In this document: one piece after another, positions 35,767 through 40,328 of the stretch
Layout: each line of letters starts with the position of its first letter
Numbering within the stretch: position 1 is the stretch's first letter
DNA from: Lentilactobacillus sunkii DSM 19904
Lineage (GTDB): Bacteria; Bacillota; Bacilli; Lactobacillales; Lactobacillaceae
Direction: 5' to 3'
Length of the DNA: 64,000 nt
Assembly: GCF_001435575.1 (NCBI RefSeq)
Contig: NZ_AZEA01000001.1
Coordinates: forward strand, 62,001 to 126,000
The notes under the pieces: model-generated
Seen by the model: only the letters and a program-made list of their open reading frames with translations
Database searches by the model: none
What the model was told of the DNA's origin: nothing
Program-made: the position numbers and the translations under genes

Positions 35767-35909
35767 ATTATTAGTTTAAAATGGGTGAATATTTAATAAA
35801 AATGCAACATATTTAAGGAAATCATAATGTTTTTGACTGATTGAGCCAATTATGCTGAATAAACATTGACTACCATGTGAATATTTCATATAATTGTTAT
35901 TGTTGATTT

Positions 35910-35983
35910 GTCGCAATAGCTCAGCTGGATAGAGCAACGGTCTTCTAAACCGTAGGTCGAGAGTCCGAATCTCTCTTGCGACA
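35910..35983 (+). tRNA. tRNA-Arg (anticodon UCU)
   Basis: The acceptor stem GTCGCAA/TTGCGAC is perfect. The D arm AGCTCAGCTGGATAGAGC, the anticodon loop CTTCTAA with TCT, and the T arm GAGAGTCCGAATCTCTC are all present. The discriminator base is A and CCA is not encoded. It stands alone on the plus strand with its own terminator and reads AGA codons. Confidence 0.97.
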
Positions 35984-35997
35984 TAACATCGGGATCA

Positions 35998-36072: not shown

Positions 36073-36119
36073 ACAATGCAGGAGAGTCAATCGGTTAGGA
36101 TTTAACGCTCCTGCATTGT
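36073..36119. repeat. 12-bp inverted repeat beyond the dUTPase-like gene
   Basis: ACAATGCAGGAG and CTCCTGCATTGT are perfect 12-bp arms around a 23-base spacer, just after the stop of the minus-strand operon. Neither strand has a clear T-run, so it is either a weak terminator or a binding or processing site. Confidence 0.5.
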
Positions 36120-36126
36120 TTAATCA

Positions 36127-36666
36127 TTAATAATTTTCATCTTGGCGATCTTCGTTAATTTGGTTCTTTTCATTAAATGCATTTTCGATCTCTTCTTCAG
36201 TATAGCCAAAGTCAACTAACCCAAACTTTAGAAAAAGTCGCCAAGAATGGTTGAAACTGTCACCACTATGGTTGAAATAAGCGTCAAACAGCATTCTCTT
36301 CAATACCAAATACTGTTTATCCAGGTTGTCTTCTTTTTTGAACTTCTTGATTTTAGCTAAATCATCCTGAGAATTCAAAACAAAGTGGTTCCAATTTTTT
36401 AGGTTCGAAATCAATAAGTAAAAGTCCATTGCATCAACATACTCATAAAGCAGTGTCTGGCGTGGCGTTTTGTCGGGATCACTCTTGCCCCGATGCACTT
36501 TCCAAACTTTAAACCACTCAGACGTGTTGGCCATCTCGGCAAGTTCGACATCCAGTGCAACAAAAGCGTTCTTAACACGACCGTCGTTTGACCAGTGAAG
36601 CTGCTTTTTAGATTCAATTTGGCGGTTCAGATAAACTGATGAAGCAATCAAAGCTTGTAAATCCAT
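36127..36666 (-). CDS. dUTPase_2/MazG-like nucleoside triphosphate pyrophosphohydrolase
   Basis: The protein has 179 residues and resembles dimeric all-alpha dUTPases (dUTPase_2). The metal-binding acids of that superfamily are visible as ExxE (E41, E44 in VELAEMAN) and ExxD (E75, D78 in EYVDAMDF). W55 in FKVWK matches the family's FKFW region. Such enzymes cleave dUTP or other NTPs to the monophosphate and pyrophosphate. It is the last of three tightly packed genes, nine bases after its neighbour, with AGGAG before its ATG. The acidic C-terminal tail is not typical. The exact substrate is inference. Confidence 0.7.
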   Translation of the reverse strand: MDLQALIASSVYLNRQIESKKQLHWSNDGRVKNAFVALDVELAEMANTSEWFKVWKVHRGKSDPDKTPRQTLLYEYVDAMDFYLLISNLKNWNHFVLNSQDDLAKIKKFKKEDNLDKQYLVLKRMLFDAYFNHSGDSFNHSWRLFLKFGLVDFGYTEEEIENAFNEKNQINEDRQDENY

Positions 36667-36675
36667 GAATAACTC

Positions 36676-37617
36676 CTATCCAAAAATAATCTTGTTTGAG
36701 AGAATTTCCAACTGCTTTTTATTATCCAAATACCAATCTTTGATGAATGGGTAGTCTAATAACAGGTTCAGCCAACTTTCTTTTTGATCGTTATCATGGA
36801 TATCAGCACCCCACTTTGGTCGATCTTCATTACCAGCGTTGAACACTGTCAACTTAGTATCGTTGTCCAAGGTTAAAGCAGCCCCACCATTTTCACCAGA
36901 CATTAAAATATATTGATTGTCAGCTGATTTGACGAATAGTTCATCTAAAATTGGTTCTGGAATCTTGCCGGCAGCAAATTCATAAAATTCACCATTAACA
37001 CCATCAAGAACATTGAAGTCAATCTTGAAGCCAAAGTTTTCTTTCAGGACTTCAGCAGCTTGAATCATGACTTGCAATGCCTGCTTAATTGCAGAAACTT
37101 CCAGCCCTTCCAAATCGACAACGAAATAGTCAATCAAAGAAGAACCGTGGAACATTAGTTCCTTATTCTTAAGGTTGAGATAGAACAAGGGCCGGTTGTG
37201 GGCAGTTGGTCCAAAGAAGAAACCAGCCGGATTTTTGGTCGACTTGGTGAAGGTAAATGTATTATCACCCAGTGATCCAAATTTGCACAGGAGTTTTTGA
37301 ACATGCTCAGCATTTGAAATACCAAATCCGTTGGCGTTATTTGACAACTTCAATAAACGTTCAAAGAAAACCAACTGAACATCTTCATCTGAAAACTGAT
37401 GTGGAAATTCTACAAAGTCAGTGTTGAGTTGATAATTGGTCAGCTGAACGGCCGCAGTCAATAAATCTGGCAATTCCGTGGTCTGATTCAAGCTCTCAAA
37501 TGCCTTGACATACTTGGTACCATTATCCAGTCCAGCTTGGATTGAGCCAGTGTAATTGTTCAAAAGCTCCGTTGTAGTTAAAACTTTCTTTTCTGTTTCA
37601 TTATTTTCATTACTCAC
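36676..37617 (-). CDS. Unrecognised 313-residue protein, middle gene of the three-gene operon
   Basis: I do not recognise a family. The protein is acidic and soluble, with no membrane segment or signal peptide and no obvious nucleotide-binding loop. Features include an Asn-rich N-terminus, the stretch NPAGFFFGPTAHNRPLFYL in the middle and an aromatic C-terminal segment WLNLLLDYPFIKDWYLDNKK. Its GTG start overlaps the end of the first gene by eight bases, with AGGTG inside that gene, so translation is coupled. Together with the coiled-coil and NTP pyrophosphohydrolase neighbours it probably acts in one complex or pathway. Confidence 0.75.
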   Translation of the reverse strand: MSNENNETEKKVLTTTELLNNYTGSIQAGLDNGTKYVKAFESLNQTTELPDLLTAAVQLTNYQLNTDFVEFPHQFSDEDVQLVFFERLLKLSNNANGFGISNAEHVQKLLCKFGSLGDNTFTFTKSTKNPAGFFFGPTAHNRPLFYLNLKNKELMFHGSSLIDYFVVDLEGLEVSAIKQALQVMIQAAEVLKENFGFKIDFNVLDGVNGEFYEFAAGKIPEPILDELFVKSADNQYILMSGENGGAALTLDNDTKLTVFNAGNEDRPKWGADIHDNDQKESWLNLLLDYPFIKDWYLDNKKQLEILSNKIIFG

Positions 37618-38491
37618 CGTCAGTCACCTGCGTTTCTTTGCTCAAGCTCTGCAAGTATTTGGCGTACAAGTTGTTATTGTTATCAATAAATGCTTCAAAA
37701 CTGCCAAACGAAGCCCGAATATTTTGTTTTTCCAAATTATAAATTGTCTCTTCTTTTGATAAAGCCAAAATTTGATTTTCGTTTTTCTTGATTTCTGCTC
37801 GGCCATCAGAAGCTTGTTCATCAATGTTGGTCAATTCCAATAAAGCGTTTTGAAGTTGCTGATGCTCTTCCTTCACTTTTCCTGCTTCCCAAGGCATTGG
37901 TGATTTCTCTTCATTTTCTTTGATCTGTTTTCGAATTTCTTCTTTGCGCTGATCACGTTTATTTTGATCTTCAATTAGTTGGGTTAATTTTTCGTTCTTT
38001 TGACCCAATTCACGCATCTGGTCGTCATTGACCCGTTTGTTTTGAGCTTCGAGTTCAAATGATTTTGATAGCGTATTATATTCGTCTTCGGCAAAATTGA
38101 ACTGGACGTTAATGGCGTCCAATTCACCGAACATTCGATGATCCCACCAATTACCGAAGTAGATATTAAACTTACCCAAATCATATTCGTGGTAGTAGAA
38201 GAATGGATATGTAGTGCCTAAATAGTCAATGAGTTTATTACTCAAATGATGACTCAACTGAGTCTTTAGATCGGCAGCCAAGCCAAAAAAGTTAGCTTTT
38301 GGCTGGTCAGGCTGTTCACCCTTCACTTCAGTTGCAAAACGGTTTGGATCCATTAATTCATAGACTTTTAAATCATTGCCATCTTTGATCGAATCATTCA
38401 GGTCGGACAAATATTTCACTTTTTCGCTAAGGGCGGAAGATAAAATAGTGTCATTTTGGCTGAATGGATCGTTTTCAATTTTGTTATCCAT
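37610..38491 (-). CDS. Unrecognised 293-residue coiled-coil protein, first gene of the three-gene operon
   Basis: The first 135 residues are mixed and rich in aromatic residues (YPFFYYHEYDLGKFNIYFGNWW). From about 135 to 255 the sequence is a long Glu/Lys/Gln-rich helix with heptad character, broken by SPMPWEAG near 195-205, as in a two-helix hairpin. No ATPase motif, membrane segment or signal peptide is visible. The hairpin recalls the arms of SbcC/SMC-like proteins without their ATPase heads. It begins with ATG after CGAGGC and overlaps the next gene by eight bases. Confidence 0.75.
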   Translation of the reverse strand: MDNKIENDPFSQNDTILSSALSEKVKYLSDLNDSIKDGNDLKVYELMDPNRFATEVKGEQPDQPKANFFGLAADLKTQLSHHLSNKLIDYLGTTYPFFYYHEYDLGKFNIYFGNWWDHRMFGELDAINVQFNFAEDEYNTLSKSFELEAQNKRVNDDQMRELGQKNEKLTQLIEDQNKRDQRKEEIRKQIKENEEKSPMPWEAGKVKEEHQQLQNALLELTNIDEQASDGRAEIKKNENQILALSKEETIYNLEKQNIRASFGSFEAFIDNNNNLYAKYLQSLSKETQVTDGE

Positions 38492-38639
38492 AATATTGCC
38501 TCGTATTCCCCTTATTTATACATTTAATGTTATCTGAAAAACGTACATAAATAAAGGGTTAATCGCATTATTTATGAAAGATTTTCAAAAAACATTAGAA
38601 ACTTATCCGTTATGTCCAAATAAACAACAAAATCATATC

Positions 38640-38673
38640 AAAAAAGATCGGACAATAGAATTATCCGATCTTT
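38640..38673 (-). terminator. Terminator of the oligopeptide-binding protein gene
   Basis: On the minus strand AAAGATCGGA pairs with TCCGATCTTT around an 11-base loop, followed by a T-run, 15 bases after the stop. Confidence 0.85.
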
Positions 38674-38687
38674 GAGAACTGAGAAAA

Positions 38688-40328
38688 TTATTTGACGACG
38701 TAAACATTCTTGTAGTTATAAGTGGCACCAGCTGTGTTATAAATGATTCCCTTTACCTTACTGCTGAGTAAGTTTTTACTTGCTGATTGATAAAGCGGTG
38801 TAACACCCTGATTTTCTAGCAGAATATTTTGAGCTTTGGTGAGGTCGTCAAATCGCTTGTCAGGATTTCCGGCGTCAGTTGTTGATGATGCCTTGATTAA
38901 TTTGTCATACTGTTTGTTGGACCACTGTGGGACATTGCTTGGGTTTCCTGATGTCAGGATGTTCAGGAAAGTAATTGGATCGGCAAAGTCGGCATACCAG
39001 TCGCCCATAGTGACTTCGTAATTATGGGATTTTTGTCGTGAAAGCAATGTTTGGAACGGAATATTACTCAAACTCACTTTAAGACCAGGCAAATTCTTTT
39101 CAAGTTGTGACTGAAGATATTCGCTGACCTGTTTTTGTGCGAATTCGTCTGAACTTAACAATGTGAAACTCATTTTTGTAATGCCAAGTTCTTTAAGCCC
39201 TTCCTGCCAAAGTGCCTTTGCCTTGGTTGGATTATATTTTAACGAATCTGGTTTGGCAGTTGTAGCAGTGAAATCTTTACCAGTTTTGGGGTTAATTGAA
39301 AGGCCTTTTGAAACAAAACTTTGAGAATTAAATGAGCCATCACCCAAAATTTTCTTAGTCAACTGGCCGCGATCAATTGCCATTGAAATTGCTTCTCTGA
39401 TCTTGAGATTCTTAAACAATTTCTTTTTTTGGTTAAAGGCCAGATAGTAACAACTTGATGTTTCTCTTGTTACCATATCTTTATTATTTTTCAGATTCTT
39501 TGCCAATACCCCGGACAAGCCAACATACTGCAGCTTATCCGTCTTGAATTGATTGTAGCCCGTCGATGGATCCTTTGTAACTTGATAATGAAGCTTGTCG
39601 AGCTTAACCTTCTTGCTGTCCCAATACTTTTCATTCTTAGCCAGCGTCCAAGTCATCCCAGTCCCATTCCACTTGGTTAACTTGAACGGACCGTTGTAAA
39701 CCATATCGGAACTCTTGGTACCATAATTCTCACCATATTTCTCAACGACCTTTTGGTTTTGTGGGAAAAACAGTGGGAATCCCATTAACAGCTTGAAGTA
39801 AGGAATTTTCTTTTCCAGCGTTACAACCAGCTTATACTTACCATCTGCCTTAATTCCTAAGGTTTTGTAAGATTTTTTGTTAGCCTGAATTGCGTCAGCG
39901 TTCTTAATCCCAGAGAATAAATAACCATATTGTGATGCTGTTTTTGGATTAACGGTCCTTTGCCATGAATAGACAAAATCGGCTGCAGTGACCGGATCAC
40001 CGTTACTCCATTTTGTTCCCTTTCGAAGATTAAATGTGTATTGCAAGCCATCTTTCGAGATCTTTGTTTTGGTTGCCAATGCATTTTCGATCTTACTGTT
40101 TTTTCCCAATCGATAAAGCCCTTCATCAACATTATTCAACACTTCAAACGTTTGGACCGAAGTAGTTTTGGAAAGATCCACCGTGGAAAGTTCCGAACTG
40201 ACAGCTGTCGTAAATTCCTGCTTGGCGGCCAGCTTTCCCGAACCGCTTTTTTGAGACGAACAACCGCCTAATAACAGTGCAAATGAAATAACCAGCCCAA
40301 CTTTTAAACTTTGGTAATTGCTTGACAT
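38688..40328 (-). CDS. oppA: Oligopeptide ABC transporter substrate-binding lipoprotein (OppA family)
   Basis: This is a family 5 extracellular solute-binding protein that captures peptides for an ABC importer. The N-terminal signal ends in the lipobox LGGC with Cys23 as the lipid anchor. The conserved TFNLRKGTKWSNGDPVTAADFVYSW segment of the family lies near residues 105-130 (in pieces: FNLRKG, WSNGDPVTA). It has 546 residues. No permease or ATPase genes are adjacent, so it is an orphan binding protein, as is common in lactobacilli. It has its own terminator. Confidence 0.93.
   Translation of the reverse strand: MSSNYQSLKVGLVISFALLLGGCSSQKSGSGKLAAKQEFTTAVSSELSTVDLSKTTSVQTFEVLNNVDEGLYRLGKNSKIENALATKTKISKDGLQYTFNLRKGTKWSNGDPVTAADFVYSWQRTVNPKTASQYGYLFSGIKNADAIQANKKSYKTLGIKADGKYKLVVTLEKKIPYFKLLMGFPLFFPQNQKVVEKYGENYGTKSSDMVYNGPFKLTKWNGTGMTWTLAKNEKYWDSKKVKLDKLHYQVTKDPSTGYNQFKTDKLQYVGLSGVLAKNLKNNKDMVTRETSSCYYLAFNQKKKLFKNLKIREAISMAIDRGQLTKKILGDGSFNSQSFVSKGLSINPKTGKDFTATTAKPDSLKYNPTKAKALWQEGLKELGITKMSFTLLSSDEFAQKQVSEYLQSQLEKNLPGLKVSLSNIPFQTLLSRQKSHNYEVTMGDWYADFADPITFLNILTSGNPSNVPQWSNKQYDKLIKASSTTDAGNPDKRFDDLTKAQNILLENQGVTPLYQSASKNLLSSKVKGIIYNTAGATYNYKNVYVVK

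Follow-up and report, generated by a model that had tools for sequence, protein, structure and literature searches.

A core operon of Lactobacillaceae whose dUTPase-like third gene has repeatedly lost its active site

MazG and other all-alpha NTP pyrophosphohydrolases possess a metal site built from four acidic residues, and the dimeric all-alpha dUTPases (PF08761, PHROG 173) have a site of the same kind. These dUTPases, such as phage phiDI Dut (PDB 5MYD), carry ExxE and ExxD metal ligands and a motif V of the form KxxxNxxR. In phiDI Dut, the substrate contacts of motif V are Lys154, Asn158, and Arg161 (PMC5608427). Staphylococcal phage dUTPases also bind the Stl repressor, so there is precedent in this family for function by protein contact and not by catalysis alone (PMC5608427, PMC6770826). 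These are active enzymes that act on an island repressor. SbcC and Rad50 contain a coiled-coil hairpin, and "exonuclease SbcC" is the annotation given to a Limosilactobacillus fermentum homologue of the first gene described here. A three-gene operon on the chromosome of Lentilactobacillus sunkii DSM 19904 resembles these systems in part. A literature search found no paper on this operon.

The window, a stretch of 64,000 nucleotides, carries the three genes on its minus strand at 36127-38491. Gene 1 (cc; 37610-38491, minus) encodes 293 aa with an N-terminal alpha/beta domain (~1-135), a hairpin (~156-262), and C-terminal helices. Gene 2 (mid; 36676-37617, minus) has a GTG start and encodes 313 aa composed of N-terminal helices, an alpha/beta middle, and a C-terminal domain (~202-307). 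Gene 3 (dut; 36127-36666, minus) encodes a 179-aa relative of the dimeric dUTPases (PF08761). Genes 1 and 2 overlap by 8 nt (CAGGTGACTGACGGTGAGTAATG), and genes 2 and 3 are separated by a 9-nt gap with an AGGAG site (GGATAGGAGTTATTCATG). The same order and tight spacing are found in 147/147 loci with all three genes (cc-mid median -8 nt; mid-dut median +10 nt), thus the layout is not due to chance, and the coupling of the three genes reported in a first-pass annotation of this DNA is confirmed.

Gene 3 was the only one of the trio that the first-pass annotation could recognize, and this stands. The protein matches PF08761 (dUTPase_2) over residues 3-179 with an E of 9.6e-20 and 71.9 bits against a curated cut-off of 22.9, and it matches PHROG 173 with an E of 5e-22. 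The same annotation had called it dUTPase_2/MazG-like; the second half of that label falls away, since the match is to dUTPase_2 and to no MazG family. In the window protein, the ExxE/ExxD ligands are intact (E41, E44, E75, and D78), as is motif V (KNQINEDR at 167-174; K167xxxN171xxR174), which has the spacing of phiDI Lys154/Asn158/Arg161. Motif IV differs. The pair proposed for uracil specificity, His-Phe, is replaced by Asp81-Phe82, and Asp occupies position 81 in 96% of intact gene 3 copies. Phage relatives have His at this position, and phiDI, a still active member, has Ala. By its sequence, gene 3 is a member of the PF08761 family, and because the motif IV His is replaced by Asp81, the name "uracil-specific dUTPase" is withheld. 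The nucleotide specificity of the window protein is likely altered, given Asp81 at the position of the uracil-specificity His.

Unlike the dimeric dUTPases of phages, gene 3 is a chromosomal gene of a core operon. In Lactobacillaceae that have the trio, the slot reads miaA-glnR-glnA-[trio]-tRNA-Arg-rplU-Prp gene-rpmA, with upstream neighbours that differ in a minority of genera. An annotated Limosilactobacillus fermentum record has the trio in the same slot. In Lactiplantibacillus plantarum, glnR and glnA are lp_1580 and lp_1581 (PMC4600210), so the trio should come next there. The tRNA-Arg (TCT; 35909-35984, plus) that the first-pass annotation had pointed out beside the operon is real and was the sole Rfam match. 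It is convergent with the operon, lies outside the system, and occupies the same place between the trio and rplU in 19/19 relatives' loci tested, so its proximity has no mobile-element meaning. An island integrated at the tRNA-Arg was considered and is ruled out by this synteny. With its fixed slot and syntenic tRNA, the trio belongs to the vertically inherited core of the Lactobacillaceae and is not an island. In the kefiri-like Lentilactobacillus species and L035 only, a gene for a peptide-binding lipoprotein-like protein (38688-40328, minus) lies between glnA and the trio; it is missing from the slot in other relatives. The window's gene 1 is 97% identical to that of L. kefiri.

The first-pass annotation had proposed an antiphage system that depletes nucleotides. 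What speaks for this is only a general analogy, that of an NTP hydrolase encoded alongside a coiled-coil protein and an unknown one. Core status, conserved synteny next to ribosomal and glutamine synthetase genes, and vertical inheritance speak against it. Searches of PADLOC-DB 2.0.0 gave nothing above noise (best E 0.034 for gene 2, 0.39 for gene 1, and no hit for gene 3), and gene 1 has no phage match. The hydrolase is also dead in 70 of the 130 species sampled, and an antiphage role is very improbable.

The distribution of the three genes was surveyed in 301 Lactobacillaceae species genomes, with the three gene surveys combined by hand from lists. Gene 1 was found in 181 genomes, gene 2 in 170, and gene 3 in 173, and about 149 of the 301 have the complete trio. 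Gene 3 stands alone in 24 genomes, which belong to two genera; the pair of genes 1 and 2 lacks gene 3 in 21 genomes of three genera. Gene 1 without a detected gene 2 accounts for ~11 of the 181 genomes, mostly remote matches, and in one such genus a diverged gene 2 adjoins gene 1. As far as the survey lists show, no Lactobacillaceae genome has gene 2 without gene 1. Thus gene 3 can be found singly, but genes 1 and 2 stay together, and the fixed stoichiometry of three products first proposed from the gene overlaps is weakened.

The pair extends beyond the family. A broadened gene 1 profile matched 58/78 genomes of a sister family, which a protein of Enterococcus faecium with 72% identity shows to be the Enterococcaceae. 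Gene 2 adjoins gene 1 in 17/18 of the Enterococcaceae loci read (it was not detected beside gene 1 in L215), the neighbourhoods are varied, and gene 3 is not among them. The gene 3 profile had 0 matches in 76 Enterococcaceae genomes. Across the class, relatives of gene 3 were found in 44/141 genomes, and gene 1 gave one marginal match beyond the Lactobacillaceae and Enterococcaceae. Since the pair exists in Enterococcaceae without gene 3, and that family has no match to the gene 3 profile, the lasting unit is the pair, to which gene 3 was added. An apparent gene 1 "fusion" of 1,837-1,982 aa in two Enterococcaceae genomes was rejected as an artefact of masked bases read as an open frame.

The active site of gene 3 is not conserved. 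Among 151 gene 3 loci, all four ligands (EEED) are found in 75 and not in 76. After removal of duplicate genomes and of loci with gene 3 alone, 130 trio species remain, with the metal site intact in 60 and degenerate in 70. Of the four ligands, degenerate copies retain two at most, in some cases one or none, and no copy has three. Among the 76 degenerate copies of the full set, 2 contain any ExxE...ExxD spacing, both out of register. Motif V is present in 62/75 intact copies versus 1/75 degenerate copies; it is lost with the metal ligands, so the entire active site decays together. On the tree of genes 1 and 2, a FastTree estimate, the distribution of the metal site requires 8 changes, or 9 losses on the assumption that the site is never regained. 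Where gene 3 occurs alone, the metal site is missing in 23/23 loci examined.

Selection on gene 3 continues after this loss. The median dN/dS is ~0.10 for degenerate copies versus 0.027 where the site is intact; genes 1 and 2 themselves are at 0.03-0.06, and gene 3 at the loci without them is at ~0.10. These values are rough because dS is saturated in many pairwise comparisons. Trp92, Trp142, Lys147, and Gly149 are conserved at 95-100% in both intact and degenerate trio copies, and Trp92, Trp142, and Lys147 are at 100% in the copies that stand alone. Trp92 and Trp142 may simply hold the fold. A Bacillus-type prophage relative, which comes from a different family of the class, carries the two Trp residues and a Ser at the Lys147 position, and Lys147 is missing from the phage and prophage relatives examined.

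These results bear on the proposal, also made in the first-pass annotation, that the operon cleans the nucleotide pool. Gene 3 would then be a house-cleaning NTP pyrophosphohydrolase, tied to replication by its coiled-coil partner, that removes dUTP or modified dNTPs. The metal ligands and motif V retained in the window protein fit such a role, as does the strong constraint on intact copies. Catalysis still matters in the species with an intact metal site, approximately half of them, as the intact site and a dN/dS of ~0.03 indicate. As the function shared by all gene 3 copies, however, house-cleaning is unlikely. The site has been lost 8-9 times with the gene retained, including 70/130 trio species and all of the examined loci with gene 3 alone; the uracil-specificity His is replaced by Asp81; and nothing connects genes 1 and 2 to replication. 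Moreover, a trimeric dUTPase (PF00692) is present anyway, both in the window's genome and in 299/301 Lactobacillaceae genomes. The idea of complementarity, in which the trimeric enzyme would be confined to species whose gene 3 is dead, is ruled out by the same count. Repeated loss of the site under purifying selection, with a trimeric dUTPase nearly everywhere, means that dUTP sanitation is most likely not the shared function of gene 3.

From this sequence evidence, the conserved role of gene 3 is most likely to bind protein, without catalysis. A single operon gene whose catalytic site is destroyed repeatedly while selection continues is most readily understood as a pseudoenzyme that binds proteins or has a structural function. 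The Stl-binding phage dUTPases are likened to gene 3 by analogy only: they are active enzymes, and the site of gene 3 has been repeatedly destroyed. In the explanation preferred here, the operon consists of two units. Genes 1 and 2 most likely encode the two proteins of a single cytoplasmic assembly, presumably a physical complex, in which the coiled-coil hairpin of gene 1 would be a spacer or arm and the domains of gene 2 its partner. Gene 3 was apparently captured from a phage-type enzyme and joined the operon in the Lactobacillaceae. It would serve as a folded subunit that binds protein or has a regulatory part, and Lys147 would belong to the C-terminal surface through which it acts. In species with an intact site, including that of the window, gene 3 probably still binds or cleaves a nucleotide with altered specificity. 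Taken as a whole, a two-unit core operon with a non-catalytic role for gene 3 is given about an even chance of being correct. A more specific version is tentative and somewhat doubtful: that the pair encodes a core protein assembly, so far undescribed, in lactic acid bacteria and enterococci, of which the captured phage-type dUTPase became a structural subunit in the Lactobacillaceae, with catalysis lost repeatedly as the structural role gained ground.

Whether the gene 3 product contacts those of genes 1 and 2 is a separate question. Dead gene 3 copies persist under selection without the pair in two genera, so the role of gene 3 need not involve it. Gene 3 could be a genetic neighbour only, sharing transcription with genes 1 and 2 while having a non-catalytic role of its own, such as dUTPase-like signalling, and forming no complex with them. 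This carries roughly a one-in-three weight in our judgement and draws on the 24 genomes with gene 3 alone, as well as on the 21 Lactobacillaceae genomes and the searched Enterococcaceae that have the pair but not gene 3. Against it, where all three genes are present they are contiguous in one order at ~10-nt spacing in every locus, and the two genera with gene 3 alone may represent one event. Where the pair is missing, conservation of His140 is 39% in place of 90%, and that of Gly149 is 74% in place of 100%, a weak hint of contact. Tight synteny favours contact of gene 3 with the other two products, and the genera with gene 3 alone count against it. The locus is a natural experiment: one operon gene in one family exists in apparently active and dead forms, with at least 8 independent conversions. 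Swapping an active for a dead gene 3 directly tests non-chemical roles of a dUTPase-fold protein. Compared with the dimeric dUTPases, gene 3 differs in Asp81 for the motif IV His, in a Lys147 that the relatives examined do not have, and in an active site that most of the sampled species have lost.

Genes 1 and 2 are two core protein families without a name or function in industrially and medically relevant bacteria. Neither gave anything above noise in Pfam, NCBIfam, or PHROGs, their homologues have no Pfam match either, and a sequence search of the PDB returned no match for either protein. Gene 1 has a conserved stretch in its N-terminal domain, YPFFYYxE...FGNWWDxRxFGxLD, and the C-terminal domain of gene 2 (~202-307) has conserved LDxLFV ... 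YPFxxxWY. AlphaFold2 predicts both with confidence: gene 1 at a pLDDT of about 89 (89.3), with the helical hairpin at ~156-262, and gene 2 as a confident monomer (pLDDT 90.7, pTM 0.85). Foldseek comparison of the predicted structures with the PDB found no match for either at E up to 0.001. For gene 2 residues 202-307, the best structural match in the PDB has a Z of 6.2, which is not a confident match; likeness of the C-terminal part to KA1, RnlA, and the phosphoglucomutase C-terminal domain is at noise level only, and viral structure models gave no confident match. The earlier description of gene 2 as an unknown protein is thus upheld.

Gene 1 had been described as an SbcC-like hairpin without ATPase heads. 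The hairpin is predicted and Walker A is found in 0/149 homologues, so that much of the description survives, but SbcC is a resemblance only. Structural matches of gene 1 in the PDB, with Z up to 10.1, come through the helical hairpin only, and the Rad50 hook is among them. A zinc-hook CxxC occurs in 1/149 homologues, the window protein has no Cys, and gene 1 has its own conserved N-terminal domain. With no Walker A and no zinc hook, gene 1 is, as far as these data go, not related to SbcC. Most of the hairpin is absent in L062, where both ends are kept, which suggests that the coil is not the conserved core of the protein. Automated labels of "dUTPase" and "exonuclease SbcC" are unreliable at the trio locus.

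A promoter-like element (CTTTATTTATGTACGTTTTTCAGATAACAT; 38527-38556, minus) is conserved 5' of gene 1. Its pattern, CTTTATT followed after ~16-17 nt by TAACAT/TACCAT/TAAGAT, fits the usual -35 consensus poorly and is found 5' of gene 1 in 71/149 loci versus 0.55 loci expected from shuffles. Elsewhere in the genome the pattern occurs in one other place, which is unconvincing. The element may mark a regulated promoter. A terminator-like hairpin (38643-38673, minus) lies between the upstream peptide-binding-protein gene and the operon. The leader at 38485-38570 (minus) can be folded into a hairpin (-17 kcal/mol, z -2.4), and close Lentilactobacillus species are nearly identical over it. Directly downstream of gene 3 is a perfect 11-bp inverted repeat, CAATGCAGGAG/CTCCTGCATTG (36074-36084 and 36108-36118), which has no T run on the operon strand and is a possible end-of-operon structure.

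Other genes accompany the pair in some lineages. In genus g16 (L216 7763-11005), the place of gene 3 behind the pair is taken by genes for LemA-like and HtpX-like membrane proteins. In several Enterococcaceae, a small basic protein of 60-67 aa (MKKRxKKKxAYKxYIxxIF...) is encoded immediately 5' of gene 1 (L199 6674-6877, L200 6603-6794, L207 7466-7648, and L208 8891-9088).
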